The translations under genes were made by a program, and so were the position numbers. From Bacilli bacterium (GTDB lineage: Bacteria; Bacillota_I; Bacilli_A; RF39; UBA660), in assembly GCA_017434825.1 (NCBI GenBank), contig JAFSGC010000016.1, positions 1-64,000 on the forward strand: DNA of 64,000 nt. Reading direction: 5' to 3'. Of this stretch, positions 6,868 to 44,003 are shown one piece after another. The notes beneath the pieces were generated by a model. The model saw only the letters and a list, made by a program, of their open reading frames with translations. It did not search any database and was not told where the DNA came from. Every line of letters begins with the position of its first letter. The stretch's first letter is position 1.

Positions 6868-7647
6868 GTGAAAAAAATAGGCGCAATATTAATAATTATG
6901 ATGCTAGTTCTATGCGGGTGTGAGAAAAAAAGTTCAAATGTAGATAATAAACAAGAAATAGAAATTAAAAATGTTGAATTAACTGATGAAGAGCTAGTTA
7001 AAGTTTGGAATGTAATTAATGTTCTTTCTCAAGAAAAGGAATCTCTTAGTTATAATGATTTTACTAATCAAGAAAAAATCGGTTTTGCTTTAGATCTTTT
7101 GGCTATTGAAAATACGGATCCTGAAACTTATATTGTAAGCGACTATGAAAAATCAAAAGATGCTATGACAGATGTTATAAAAAGGTATTTTGGTCAAAAT
7201 GCCGAAATAGCCATGGAAGACTATATGTGTGAATATTGCGTTAATGAAGTTTTATATAACTATAATGTAGCAAAAGAGGAATTTGAATATGCATATCACG
7301 GACATGGATACTCTAGTTTAATGATTACAGATAATATTATTAGTACTAAACAAAAAGGAAATGAATATTTAATAGAAGTAGCAAGGTTATATGCGGGTCC
7401 AGAAAGTGATATCTATTTCGAAGATCCAACACAATTATTTAAAACTGCAACAGATGCTAAAAAAATGGAAAATATGGTGATGGACATCAAGGGAACAGAT
7501 TACTGTTCATATGATGCTGACACAGGTATGGAAACTTGTGATTTCTTAAAAGTTTTACAAGATAATCCATATGAATTTGCAATTTATACTTACACATTTA
7601 ATTTGGAAAATGAAAATTTAATTTTTAATAATTATAAATTAAATTGA
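6868..7647 (+). CDS. Hypothetical lipoprotein
   Basis: The N-terminus is a lipoprotein signal: basic residues, a hydrophobic run and the lipobox L-C-G-C, so the mature protein would be anchored through Cys on the outer face of the membrane. About 240 residues follow, acidic and Tyr-rich, with YMCEYCV and two further Cys late in the sequence (YCSYD, ETCDF). I do not recognise the domain. GTG 6868 has AAGG at suitable spacing; the in-frame ATG at 6850 lies at the predicted transcription start and has no Shine-Dalgarno site, so GTG is preferred. Confidence 0.7.
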   Translation: MKKIGAILIIMMLVLCGCEKKSSNVDNKQEIEIKNVELTDEELVKVWNVINVLSQEKESLSYNDFTNQEKIGFALDLLAIENTDPETYIVSDYEKSKDAMTDVIKRYFGQNAEIAMEDYMCEYCVNEVLYNYNVAKEEFEYAYHGHGYSSLMITDNIISTKQKGNEYLIEVARLYAGPESDIYFEDPTQLFKTATDAKKMENMVMDIKGTDYCSYDADTGMETCDFLKVLQDNPYEFAIYTYTFNLENENLIFNNYKLN

Positions 7648-18463: not shown

Positions 18464-18526
18464 ATGTTTAGAAATTTAGTTGCAAGACATCATCATAATA
18501 ATTGGCGCTTGTTAATACGACATTAA
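18464..18526 (+). CDS. 20-residue His-rich leader peptide
   Basis: A short reading frame: MFRNLVAR, then HHH (codons 9-11, all CAT), then NNWRLLIRH and TAA. GGAAG lies 8 bases before the ATG, and a good promoter lies just upstream. Four of 20 codons are His. Position, size and the downstream alternating hairpins match the leader peptide of a ribosome-mediated attenuator, as in the enterobacterial his operon. The peptide itself probably has no other role. Stalling at the CAT codons would report uncharged tRNA-His. Confidence 0.75.
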   Translation: MFRNLVARHHHNNWRLLIRH

Positions 18527-18627
18527 AATTGTTGTAGATACAAGTGCTATTTGTGGTGCTTGTATCTAGTAAATTTAAATATATATTAAAAATGCTATAC
18601 AAGTACTACTTGTGTAGCATTTTTTTA
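18482..18627 (+). promoter_or_regulatory. Six-segment transcription attenuator (his-type architecture)
   Basis: Six alternately complementary segments: A GCAAG (18482-18486), B CTTGT (18508-18512), C TAGATACAAG (18535-18544), D CTTGTATCTA (18559-18568), E AATGCTATACAAG (18591-18603) and F CTTGTGTAGCATT (18609-18621), then T to 18626. C:D is a perfect 10-bp stem; E:F is a 13-bp terminator with one G-U pair. B:C (5 bp) and D:E (7 bp, CTTGTAT with ATACAAG) are the alternatives. A ribosome halted at the His codons covers A, which frees B for C and D for E and prevents the terminator. A ribosome that reaches the stop codon covers B and restores C:D and E:F. Confidence 0.75.
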
Positions 18628-18656: not shown

Positions 18657-18902
18657 ATGGAAAAAATAAAAAATGGAATAGTATTTAGTGATGATATAAA
18701 AAGGATTTTTAGTGGTGTAAATGCATTTGATTATAGTTATGCATGTAAGCCCAATGATAGTGTGATAGAGGATGTAAGAAAAGATTTTAAGTTAGATGCT
18801 GATAAAATCTTTAATGGTAATGTTACAATTATTTCCGAAGATGAAATGATGGGCGTTAATAACTTAATTGGTGGTGAATATCCCCATCGTAACTTTAGAT
18901 AA
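18657..18902 (+). CDS. Phosphoribosyltransferase-like protein, N-terminal part (zero frame)
   Basis: This frame encodes 81 residues, of which the first 76 (to GGEYP) join logically to the +1 frame that follows; the last five (HRNFR) are then out of register. AGGAGA precedes the ATG. The shift point is CCC CAT at 18882-18887: re-pairing of tRNA-Pro one base forward on CCC (18883-18885) puts the ribosome into the downstream frame, giving a 294-residue protein. Either this is a programmed +1 frameshift, or the gene is broken, or the fourth C is a sequence error. The first reading is favoured by the His A-site codon and the His leader, but it is unproven. Confidence 0.6.
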   Translation: MEKIKNGIVFSDDIKRIFSGVNAFDYSYACKPNDSVIEDVRKDFKLDADKIFNGNVTIISEDEMMGVNNLIGGEYPHRNFR

Positions 18903-19542
18903 AATATATGTAAAACCTGACGAAAAAAATATCTTTTTCTTAGATTGTACAAGAGTATCTGGAAGTAATAAGATAATCTCTCGTAAAAAAGAAAGTTTAA
19001 ATATGCAAATTATTCGAGTTTCTAATTCGTTAAACGGGAACGAAATAATTCTTGCTGACGACGTGGTTTTTTCAGGTAATGTCTTAAAAAATATAATAAA
19101 TAGATTCAGCATTCGCGGAATAACTGTTGTTGGTATTATTTCTTCAATTTGTTCATCTGAAGCATATGAATATTTTAATCGAAATTTAAAATATGGCTTA
19201 AGAACAAAGTTTATAATGTCCGAAGATGTAATTGACCAAATTTGTGAACGAGATTTTTACTTTGGCGTTGCAGGTTCGGGAATCATGATTAATAGTGAAG
19301 AGGGATTATGTAAAGCTCCATATTTTAAACCATATGGAGATTCATGTGAAAGAGCATCTATTCCTAAAGAATATGAAAATTATTTTTCAACAGGGTGCTT
19401 AGAAAGAAGTCTATATTTATGGGATGATGTTGATAACACCAGAGGAAGTTCCACAAAAATTAGTGAACTACCAGAAAGAATAATAAATACAAAAAGTGAA
19501 GATGAAGTAGTAAAAACATTAAGAAGGGAGTTAAGAAGATAA
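18868..19542 (+). CDS. Phosphoribosyltransferase-like protein, main part (+1 frame)
   Basis: Carries a type I phosphoribosyltransferase PRPP-binding motif, EIILADDVVFSGNVLKNI, with the paired Asp at about residues 134-135 of the joined protein. It continues to a conserved-looking C-terminal part (GVAGSGIMINSEEG, APYFKPYGDSCERASIP, CLERSLYLW). The base acceptor cannot be told. This frame has no convincing start of its own: TTG 18868 and GTG 18871/18874 lack a good Shine-Dalgarno site. Translation therefore most likely enters from the upstream frame at CCC-CAT. The stop overlaps the SLOG gene start (TAATG). Confidence 0.7.
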   Translation: MVVNIPIVTLDKIYVKPDEKNIFFLDCTRVSGSNKIISRKKESLNMQIIRVSNSLNGNEIILADDVVFSGNVLKNIINRFSIRGITVVGIISSICSSEAYEYFNRNLKYGLRTKFIMSEDVIDQICERDFYFGVAGSGIMINSEEGLCKAPYFKPYGDSCERASIPKEYENYFSTGCLERSLYLWDDVDNTRGSSTKISELPERIINTKSEDEVVKTLRRELRR

Positions 19543-20075
19543 TGAAAAAACTACAAATAGGAGTAATGGGGTCTGCTGCAGACTTAAACTTTAGTGATGA
19601 AGCTTTAAATTTTGCGAAAGAAATTGGAAAGTGTATAGCAAAATCAGAAAATATTTTAGTGTATGGGGCTGAGAAAGAGTATACTTCGCTGTCAACGGAA
19701 GCTGCTAAAGTAGCTTCTAAAAATGGAGGTATTACAGTAGGCGTTGCTGGAGGAAAAGATAAGAAAATATATGGGAAATATCGTCCTACTATCTTAATAA
19801 ATTCAGGATTAGAAATAGGTGGAGGAAGAGAATTTAACTTAGTACTTTCTTGTGATGTGATTATTGCGATATCTGGAGGTAGTGGCACATTAACAGAAAT
19901 GGCAATTGCTTATCAAGCAGGAATTCCAATTGTGGTAATTGATAAATTTGGCGGTTGGGCAAATAAACTATCAAATGAATACATAGATGATCGAAAAAGA
20001 TTAAAATGTATAAGTGCAAACACTCCACAAGAAGCAGTTAATAAAGCAATTGAATTAGCAAATCAAAAAAAATAA
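19542..20075 (+). CDS. SLOG/LOG-like (TIGR00725-type) nucleotide-binding protein
   Basis: A Rossmann-like protein of 177 residues with the SLOG superfamily hallmarks: IGVMGSAAD at the start, a GGGREFNLVLSCDVIIAISGGSGTLTEMAIAYQAG core, in which GGxGTxxE binds a nucleotide phosphate, and PIVVID. Relatives include LOG phosphoribohydrolases, which cut ribose-5-phosphate from nucleotide monophosphates. Coupling by overlap to a PRPP-type transferase suggests that the two act on the same nucleotide. That link is inference. Confidence 0.8.
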   Translation: MKKLQIGVMGSAADLNFSDEALNFAKEIGKCIAKSENILVYGAEKEYTSLSTEAAKVASKNGGITVGVAGGKDKKIYGKYRPTILINSGLEIGGGREFNLVLSCDVIIAISGGSGTLTEMAIAYQAGIPIVVIDKFGGWANKLSNEYIDDRKRLKCISANTPQEAVNKAIELANQKK

Positions 20076-20118: not shown

Positions 20119-21990
20119 ATGGAATATAAAATAATAAATGGAGCAATATCCTTTGGAACTAATACGATAATTGAAGAAATAAATTTTGAAATTAAAAATA
20201 ATGATAAAATTGCAATTGTTGGTCGAAATGGTAGTGGAAAAACATCTTTGTTAAAAGCGATAGTAGATAATGAAATGCTAGAAACTGGTCTTGGAGAGGA
20301 AAACCTTTCTGTTATCAAAATTGGTAGCCCAACGATAGGGTATCAAACTCAGCATGCATTTTCAGATTTAACTGCCACTTTGGAAGAAGAAATTCTAAAA
20401 GTTTATAAACCAATCACTGATTTAAAAAAGAAAATTGAAAAATTAGAAAAGACCTTAACAATAGATACTTCGGACAAAGTTCTTAATGAGTATACAGATA
20501 GCTTAGATAAATTTAAACTTATCGGCGGTTATACTTATCAAAAAGAATATGAGTTGGCCCTTATGAAGTTTGGATTTACCAAAGAAGATAAATGTAAAAA
20601 ATTATCAGAATTTTCCGGAGGTCAAAGAACCAAAATATCATTTTTAAAACTGATTCTAAGTAAGCCAGATATTTTACTTTTAGATGAACCTACAAATCAT
20701 TTAGATATGCATACAGTAGAGTGGCTTGAAGAATATTTAAGTGATTATCCAAAATCTTTAGTGGTGGTATCTCATGACCGAATGTTCTTAGATAAAGTAG
20801 TAAATAAAATCTATGAGATAGAGTATGCATCTCTTACAAAATATAAAGGTAGTTATACTTCGTACGAAAAGCAAAAGAAGATGAATTTTGAAAAACAATT
20901 AAAAGACTATGAATATCAGCAAAAAGAAATAAAAAGATTAAAAGATATAGCAGAAAGATTTAAATATAAACCTAGTAAAGCCTCAATGGCAATGTCTAAA
21001 TTAAGAAAAATAGAACAAATGCAAATTGTGGATAAACCACAGAAAAGTGATACAAAAACTTTTAATTCAAAGATTAAAGTTAATAGCGAAAGTGGTAATA
21101 CAGTTTTAACGGTAAGAGATTTAGAAATTGGATATGATAGCGTATTATCAAAGGTGTCTTTTGAACTTTTTAAAGGACAAAAAATAGCAATCATCGGAGA
21201 AAATGGTAAGGGTAAATCAACTTTAATAAAAACTCTAATGGGAATAATCCCTAAAATAAGTGGTAAGTTTACTTATGGCTATAATGTTCAAAAAGAATAC
21301 TTTGATCAGCAAATAGAATTTATTAATGAAGAAAATACTATTTATGAAGAATATGAACAAACTTTTCCTGGAACTGAATCGGTACAAATTAGAAAAAATC
21401 TTGGTGCCTTTCTATTTACGGGGGAAGATGTATTTAAAAAGATAAACACTCTTTCTGGAGGAGAAAAAGTAAGACTAGGTTTATGTAAGATACTACGTAA
21501 AGAACCAAACCTATTACTTTTAGATGAACCAACGAATCATTTAGATATTTTAGGAAAAGAGAACTTGGAAGAAATATTAAATAATTACGATGGCAGTGTA
21601 TTGCTTGTTTCTCATGATCGTTATTTTATAAATAGGGTTGCTGATTCGCTTTTAATATTCGAAGAAGATAAAGTAATATATTTTAATGGTAAATACCAAG
21701 AATATATTGATAAGAAAAGTAAAGAGGTTCATGTTATAGAGAAAAAGGAAACTATTAAAAAGAAAAAACAACCACAAGAACAAAGAAATATTAAAGCTCA
21801 AATAAGAAGTGTTGAGAAAGAAATCAATAAGATAGAAGAAAAAATAACAGAAATAAAAAATATGATGCTTGATGAAAAAATATATTCAGACTATCTTAAA
21901 ATGAATGAACTTCAAGACCAAATAAAATTATTTGAATATGAGCTTGAAAATAAAATGGTAGAGTGGGAAAAATTAAGTGATGATTTATAG
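20119..21990 (+). CDS. ABC-F family ATPase
   Basis: A soluble protein of 623 residues with two ABC domains and no membrane segment, of the ribosome-associated ABC-F group. Domain 1 has Walker A GRNGSGKT (about residue 35), signature FSGGQ and Walker B LLLDEPTNHLD. The linker carries the paired helices expected for reaching the tRNA E/P site. Domain 2 has GENGKGKS, LSGGEK and LLLDEPTNHLD. A coiled-coil C-terminal tail of about 80 residues resembles Uup/YdiF. Housekeeping translation roles and antibiotic protection are both found in this family. GAGG precedes the ATG. Confidence 0.92.
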   Translation: MEYKIINGAISFGTNTIIEEINFEIKNNDKIAIVGRNGSGKTSLLKAIVDNEMLETGLGEENLSVIKIGSPTIGYQTQHAFSDLTATLEEEILKVYKPITDLKKKIEKLEKTLTIDTSDKVLNEYTDSLDKFKLIGGYTYQKEYELALMKFGFTKEDKCKKLSEFSGGQRTKISFLKLILSKPDILLLDEPTNHLDMHTVEWLEEYLSDYPKSLVVVSHDRMFLDKVVNKIYEIEYASLTKYKGSYTSYEKQKKMNFEKQLKDYEYQQKEIKRLKDIAERFKYKPSKASMAMSKLRKIEQMQIVDKPQKSDTKTFNSKIKVNSESGNTVLTVRDLEIGYDSVLSKVSFELFKGQKIAIIGENGKGKSTLIKTLMGIIPKISGKFTYGYNVQKEYFDQQIEFINEENTIYEEYEQTFPGTESVQIRKNLGAFLFTGEDVFKKINTLSGGEKVRLGLCKILRKEPNLLLLDEPTNHLDILGKENLEEILNNYDGSVLLVSHDRYFINRVADSLLIFEEDKVIYFNGKYQEYIDKKSKEVHVIEKKETIKKKKQPQEQRNIKAQIRSVEKEINKIEEKITEIKNMMLDEKIYSDYLKMNELQDQIKLFEYELENKMVEWEKLSDDL

Positions 21991-43774: not shown

Positions 43775-44003
43775 AATCTTTTAAAGATTATGAACAAGAC
43801 GAAACTATTAGGAAGTTTTGAAAGAGAGCCAAGTAAGGTGAAAGTTGGCAAATGAAATAGTAGTTTGGATCACTTGGGAATTGCTTATTTGAATAAAATA
43901 GAATAGGACGAATAACTCGCGTTAAGAGGTTAAAGTGTATGACAAGTTCATAAACTAAGGTGGTACCACGGATAATGTCCGCCCTTAGATTTATGGACTT
44001 TTT
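43775..44003 (+). promoter_or_regulatory. T-box leader, isoleucine specific
   Basis: The conserved T-box AAGGTGGTACCACGG lies at 43957-43971, with TGGT as the bulge that pairs with the uncharged tRNA end. The specifier codon reads ATC (43869-43871), within GGATCACTTGGG, matching tRNA-Ile. The competing terminator pairs AAGT, CATAAA and TAAGG with CCTTA, TTTATG and ACTT, followed by a T-run. Uncharged tRNA-Ile should stabilise the antiterminator and switch on ileS. Confidence 0.95.

Follow-up and report, generated by a model that had tools for sequence, protein, structure and literature searches.

A conserved +1 frame break at a Pro-His codon pair beneath a histidine leader: a candidate natural hungry-codon frameshift in Bacillota

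Why should a gene be broken between two reading frames exactly where a proline codon meets a histidine codon, behind a leader that itself encodes a run of histidines? The locus that raises this question lies in the window, a 64,000-nucleotide stretch (G+C 0.296) of a Bacilli bacterium, one of a group of gut bacteria with small genomes, whose genome was assembled as 1.07 Mb in 20 contigs; all features of the locus are on the plus strand. The zero frame of a PRTase gene (18657..18902) opens with ATG at 18657 and runs for 81 codons, ending in PHRNFR and a TAA stop at 18900-18902. A preliminary description had this frame reaching CCC at 18882-18884, followed by CAT, and stopping at 18902, and these coordinates match exactly; its further statement, that the remainder of the gene with the PRPP motif lies in the +1 frame and yields 294 residues, is borne out by translation. 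The +1 frame (18886..19542, TAA at 19540-19542) encodes the PRPP-loop-like motif ILADDVVFSG, and the length of the trans-frame product, 294 aa, is computed from the sequence, its presence in cells being inferred. Around the shift site (18882..18887) the zero frame reads TAT CCC CAT, with Pro CCC (18882-18884) as the P-site and His CAT (18885-18887) as the A-site codon, and the new frame reads CCC-ATC. Re-pairing of tRNA-Pro on CCC at 18883-18885, as had been proposed, is possible on the CCCC run at 18882-18885. The 46 large ORFs of the window (18,960 codons) use CCC for 12 of their 503 Pro codons; just one in-frame CCC has a C after it, in CCC-CAA, and none precedes CAT or CAC. The stop of the PRTase gene is overlapped by a SLOG (LDcluster4) partner gene (19542..20075; PF18306), which encodes 177 aa without a single His. 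Downstream of the SLOG gene lies an ABC-F gene (20119-21990) whose nearest relative is OptrA and which scores 454.6 bits against a cut-off of 380 with a ribosomal-protection-like ABC-F model; a related leader, L108, likewise precedes an ABC-F. The window also contains a T-box leader at 43781-43989 (100.2 bits).

A first search of 291 family genomes matched seven. In five of these besides the window the two halves of the gene lie in different frames, and G033 holds an N-terminal remnant only. A profile of the six joined proteins, run against genome contigs, found 27 loci, 24 in Bacillota and three in CPR, which makes 25 Bacillota loci with the window included. At 21 of the 25 the gene runs into CCC-CAT and continues in the +1 frame; at the other four (L025, L026, L029 and L039) the frame is continuous at the shift place. 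An identical CCC-CAT +1 break in 21 of 25 Bacillota homologues is far beyond chance. The system is sparse: searched class-wide, the six-row profile matched in only two of 395 genomes. A single-sequence scan of genome contigs gave no result, nor did searches of viral contigs or of phages and plasmids. L039 (1799-2735), which has no shift at CCC-CAT, carries a separate frame break after TRM; it has no His leader, and a hisS-like gene lies immediately upstream. Because this second break, downstream of the site, is unexplained, L039 was excluded from the codon tables.

The leader peptide of the window locus, MFRNLVARHHHNNWRLLIRH (18464..18526), contains the His run CAT CAT CAT from 18488, and the A-site codon of the break is His as in the leader, in agreement with the preliminary description. 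A His-run leader precedes 24 of the 25 loci, all but L039. In the window, attenuator strand 1 (GCGCTTGT, 18505..18512) lies within the leader ORF directly 3′ of the His run, and is followed by strand 2 (ACAAGTGC, 18540..18547), a possible partner of either strand 1 or strand 3, by strand 3 (GGTGCTTGTATC, 18555..18566), whose possible partners are strand 2 and the 5′ terminator arm, and by an intrinsic terminator hairpin with a T run (18591..18626). An alignment of 21 leaders (L029, L032, L034 and L039 omitted) contains covariation in the terminator, where 97.1% of cells are paired and four pairs changed on both sides. Helix 1:2, paired in 100% of cells, is nearly invariant, as are most of its individual pairs; the alternative pairings, 2:3 possible in 90% of cells and 3:4 in 89%, have no significant covariation behind them. 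A short His-run ORF with alternative hairpins and then an intrinsic terminator behind it satisfies the usual description of a ribosome-mediated attenuator.

At the shift site itself, the Pro codon is CCC in all 21 shifted loci, as against zero to two CCC in each of six other Pro columns; the corresponding codon in the intact L025, L026 and L029 is CCA, CCA and CCT, respectively. A programmed +1 shift calls for a shift-prone P-site codon that can be re-paired in the new frame, and CCC followed by C meets this in 21 of 21. The A-site codon is CAT in all 21, so that the hungry-codon criterion, an A site fixed to the starved amino acid, is met, with other reasons for the fixation not excluded. The Ile codon that follows is ATT in 18 loci and ATC in three, never ATA, whereas each of 18 other Ile columns contains 4-14 ATA; on the tree no change between ATA and ATY falls at the site, compared with 3-8 per other Ile column, and three T/C changes fall at the site's own Ile codon. 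We read the absence of ATA at this overlapping codon as a sign that the zero-frame A-site codon was kept as His, with no drift to Gln. The missing ATA could instead be due to a requirement for an AUY codon that is read quickly once the frame has changed.

A search for tRNA genes in genome G000 (93% complete) returned 30 matches, with one tRNA-Pro (UGG) and one tRNA-His (GUG) among them. Gamper et al. (PMC4519876) report that in E. coli the pairing of tRNA-Pro(UGG) with CCC is weak and that this tRNA is naturally prone to +1 shifts on CCC-CG. The window also carries an SD-like stretch 5′ of the site (GGTGGTGA, 18870..18877), with a predicted pairing of -9.2 kcal/mol to an assumed anti-SD. Calculated with an assumed anti-SD, pairing 5′ of the site reaches -6 kcal/mol or lower in 17 of 21 loci versus 9.1% of random 21-mers drawn from the same genes, and -8 kcal/mol or lower in 11 of 21 versus 1.9%. 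L018, L022, L032 and L034 have only a weak element or none. An AGG-TAY-CCC spacing, as in prfB, occurs in five loci (L030, L031, L033, L035 and L036), and in the others the element is more distant, weak or absent.

The products of the locus are almost devoid of the amino acid encoded at the break. The 21 joined PRTase proteins contain two His in 6343 residues (0.03%, next to 7.05% Asn, 4.71% Tyr and 7.14% Asp), and the 195 neighbouring ORFs, 19 of them His-free, contain 1002 in 69,586, a baseline of 1.44%. Apart from the site's own codon, only one His codon is present in the 21 zero frames (L036, residue 73), and the three intact homologues have two His in 931 residues. SLOG partners longer than 150 aa, from 24 loci, hold four His in 4276 aa. 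In eight of the 25 loci the pair is followed by hisS as a third gene, recognized by N-terminal sequence and BLAST cluster; the seven full hisS genes have no His at all, the hisS neighbour of L016 being cut at 117 aa. Two CPR relatives, too, have SLOGs without His, and the CPR PRTase L042 has none either, so that His avoidance is not exclusive to leader-bearing loci. Two SLOG genes are damaged: that of L019 (near 6870-7440) is broken by an in-frame TGA after 27 aa, and that of L111 (minus strand) has a frame break and stands without a PRTase.

These data bear on the explanation that best survives beside our own, namely that the +1 shift is constitutive, or tuned by something else such as the state of tRNA-Pro, and sets a fixed ratio of stub to enzyme, His being merely a by-product of the Ile codon placed after the fourth C. 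We consider this unlikely, though a genuine contender. In its favour are the SD-like element of 17 loci, five of them with the prfB-like spacing, the weak pairing of tRNA-Pro(UGG) with CCC, sufficient for some slippage (PMC4519876), and the 5% reported for CCC-AGG-C in E. coli (PMC7022156). A by-product, however, does not account for the lack of ATA, said to place Gln in the A site, in 21 loci, for the position of an almost His-free gene behind a His leader, or for zero frames that, L036 apart, have no His codon but that of the site.

Do the two frames encode one protein? The predicted fold of the intact homologue L029 is a single domain that includes the N-terminal strand (mean pLDDT 94.4, pTM 0.90). 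Its top structural matches are type I PRTases, modest in quality; the best, 4z1o_B, has a VIA Z of 8.4 and an rmsd of 4.8 over 157 residues, with a best Foldseek E of 1.3e-3. Together with the ADD-(V/I)-FSG PRPP loop, conserved in six aligned rows, these matches meet the criterion for a type I PRTase fold, the Z being modest. In the PRPP-loop motif, the fold matches and weak matches to PF00156 and PF24390 the protein resembles HPRT/HGXPRT and PRTase-CE, but it stays below both curated cut-offs (P0001: PF24390 19.6 versus 27 bits, PF00156 20.0 versus 26.3 bits) and differs from them in being paired with a SLOG and often with hisS. The SLOG partner is above the PF18306 gathering cut-off (101.2 versus 26.3 bits). 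A search of the PDB by sequence found no match, PADLOC returned for PRTase and SLOG only matches at E > 0.006, and 'PRTase-CE' was not found by name in the papers searched. The specificity of the enzyme cannot be read from its fold matches, which are to purine PRTases, and the reaction is inferred only.

It could be argued that the halves are two separate genes, the +1 ORF being started by re-initiation or coupling and the parts assembling or acting apart, given that an ATG, GTG or TTG occurs in the +1 frame shortly before the site in 17 of 21 loci and an SD-like sequence lies in the overlap. But four of the 21 have no such start and only five have ATG, L025, L026 and L029 encode one chain with the N-terminal strand inside the predicted fold, and nothing in a split gene would call for CCC-CAY in all members. 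We find this very improbable and reject it as a general mechanism.

To what regulon the locus belongs is indicated by its leader. A leader covariance model, R1, found 36 places in 32 of 283 family genomes. The following gene, identified by its sequence, is PRTase in six and a PRTase remnant in one; hisS is first in 11 and second in one; hisG follows in two, an uncharacterised protein without a family match in four, a broken SLOG without PRTase in one, other genes in nine, and the contig end in one. Two leader-borne hisS pass the TIGR00442 cut-off and both hisG (L084:783-1475 and L114:1148-1726) pass that of TIGR00070. The occurrence of the same element ahead of other His genes, hisS and hisG, is a further mark of an attenuator, and since the leader is common to hisS and hisG, a role of the PRTase in His supply or in survival of His starvation is likely. 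Profiles for HisG and HisD had no match in six of six carrier genomes, and they missed the B. subtilis control genome too; the genomes searched for HisD, all without a match, did not include G125 and G202, the carriers of leader-borne hisG.

Histidine-racemase-like genes (CntK/HisR, below cut-off) lie under or near a His leader at L113:2745-3521 and L099:1633-2439. A protein of about 485 aa follows the His leader in L086, L090, L091 and L104; that of L090, the one of the four that was scanned, had no Pfam or NCBIfam match, and it is possible that the protein is a His-acquisition enzyme. The leader model also picks up related attenuators with an Arg run in place of His, for example MKHYSINLRRRTRRRLGMK, ahead of M20 deacylase genes in L103 (near 995), L105 (973), L106 (981) and L107 (2415, minus strand); the full-length deacylases that were counted (L103, L105 and L106) have only 3-4 Arg but 3-7 His. 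This suggests that the attenuator is modular, that its control codons can be exchanged and that the residue which is sensed is avoided.

The clustering of His, Asn and Tyr NAU codons (CAT CAT CAT AAT AAT in the leader, TAT CCC CAT at the site) might also mean that what leader and site respond to is queuosine, or some other aspect of how NAU codons are decoded, and not charged tRNA-His. Yet the product avoids only His, and not Asn, Tyr or Asp, the leader stands ahead of hisS and hisG, and its Asn codons are replaced in some cases (L031 and L032), and we reject this explanation as highly improbable.

How old the break is, and whether the gene behind it is still maintained, can be read from the tree and from selection. 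The 25 Bacillota loci form one supported clade, and shifted loci are found on both sides of its deepest fork; little weight was put on the three CPR rows, whose branches are long. The four unshifted rows occupy three separate positions in the tree, so that at least three changes are needed. The preliminary description had held that relatives with one intact frame would refute it. Such relatives exist, four in 25, and to that extent count against it, but they are scattered inside the shifted clade, which fits an old shift, lost at times. Another of its refuting outcomes, a decayed downstream frame, is seen in none of the 21 shifted loci, and the four-C run that it wished to see checked recurs in all of them, each separately assembled. 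We computed dN/dS with our own script (Nei-Gojobori) for nine pairs, eight shifted and one unshifted (L025/L026), and obtained 0.19-0.45 before the site and 0.11-0.28 after it. Judged by these sequence comparisons, the gene is under purifying selection after the shift and is not decaying. Sequencing or assembly error, or decay to a pseudogene, is scarcely credible and is rejected. In its favour one can cite that C runs often suffer artefactual differences of a single base, that the genome of the window was assembled as 20 contigs and that truncated relatives exist (L009, an N-terminal remnant); against it, the same break stands in 21 separate assemblies and is followed by low dN/dS in the nine pairs. 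A one-site break conserved across lineages, with both frames under selection, fulfils the definition of programmed +1 frameshifting, and we have very little doubt that the break is programmed.

We propose that full-length type I PRTase would be made only through a programmed +1 frameshift at CCC-CAU. The P-site tRNA would be tRNA-Pro(UGG), with its weak pairing to CCC; slow filling of the His A-site codon would allow it to move forward by one base and pair with the overlapping CCC, after which AUY (Ile) would be the next codon decoded. With plentiful His-tRNA, CAU would be read and the ribosome would stop about six codons later, leaving an 81-aa stub. The internal SD-like sequence may assist in most loci. 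In the leader, by an equally inferred stall logic, a ribosome halted at the first His codons would let strand 1 pair with strand 2, so that strand 3 would disarm the terminator, and a ribosome at the leader stop would cover strand 1 and let the terminator form. When charged tRNA-His is low, RNA polymerase would thus pass first and ribosomes would then finish the enzyme, which amounts to two His sensors in series. We judge it quite likely that a hungry-codon +1 programmed frameshift operates beneath the His attenuator in this way. That His limitation raises the shift is inferred, and the 'double His gate' of the preliminary description, for which there are no data on the response to His limitation, is still an inference, independently supported by the A-site CAY being kept, the product being almost His-free, the leader being common to hisS and hisG, and hisS being in the cluster. 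The second gate appears dispensable in some lineages, since four of the 25 loci are without the break and three of these (not L039) keep the His leader.

The closest precedent for the site is prfB (release factor 2), which likewise shifts to +1, has an SD-like element immediately 5′ of the codon where the shift occurs and is a gene that tests the supply of its own A-site decoder. It differs in having UGA in the A site and CUU in the P site where we find His and CCC, and the SD-like element is missing in some of our members; the quantity sensed here would be charged tRNA-His. By definition the locus is not of prfB type: not all members have the SD-like element at 3 nt before the shift codon, and the A site is invariably CAT and not the stop UGA. 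For a long time hungry-codon frameshifting has been a matter of laboratory experiments, and a survey of frame transitions was reportedly made by Antonov et al. in 2013. The cases of Gallant and colleagues and of yeast Ty1, as described in the review by Atkins et al. (2016, PMC5009743), share with ours a slow A-site sense codon that promotes P-site slippage, but they concern experimental starvation or a constitutive device of a mobile element. The same review allows that trans-frame proteins with a starvation-specific function are possible and states that 'no examples are known'. Our literature search for natural starvation-specific hungry-codon products found none, most subscription papers being outside its scope. 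Listeria phage tsh and E. coli pheL (both CCC_UGA) have P-site CCC in a low-GC or leader context but a stop codon in the A site, and no amino-acid control of a downstream enzyme is described there (PMC5009743).

The attenuator is of a known kind, for Naville and Gautheret (2010, PMC2965389) describe His leaders ahead of the Bacillus genes hisZ and hisS*. Those leaders, too, place a short His-run ORF and a terminator before a histidyl-tRNA synthetase paralogue; here the element also stands before a frameshifted PRTase-SLOG pair, and homology of the leader RNAs is not implied.

With some reserve, we favour the wider reading that this is a natural hungry-codon switch which reads charged tRNA-His directly, forms the second step of a gate whose first is the His attenuator, and turns on a starvation module free of His (PRTase, SLOG and in many cases a HisRS that also has no His) in organisms apparently without His biosynthesis. 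The locus is a conserved candidate for a natural hungry-codon frameshift that brings its own natural controls, 21 shifted and four unshifted genes. If the reading is true, leader attenuation would be joined by a sensor of amino acids that acts in translation. The locus also draws attention to a PRTase-SLOG pair, so far uncharacterised, within the His regulon of bacteria whose genomes gave no match to HisG or HisD.
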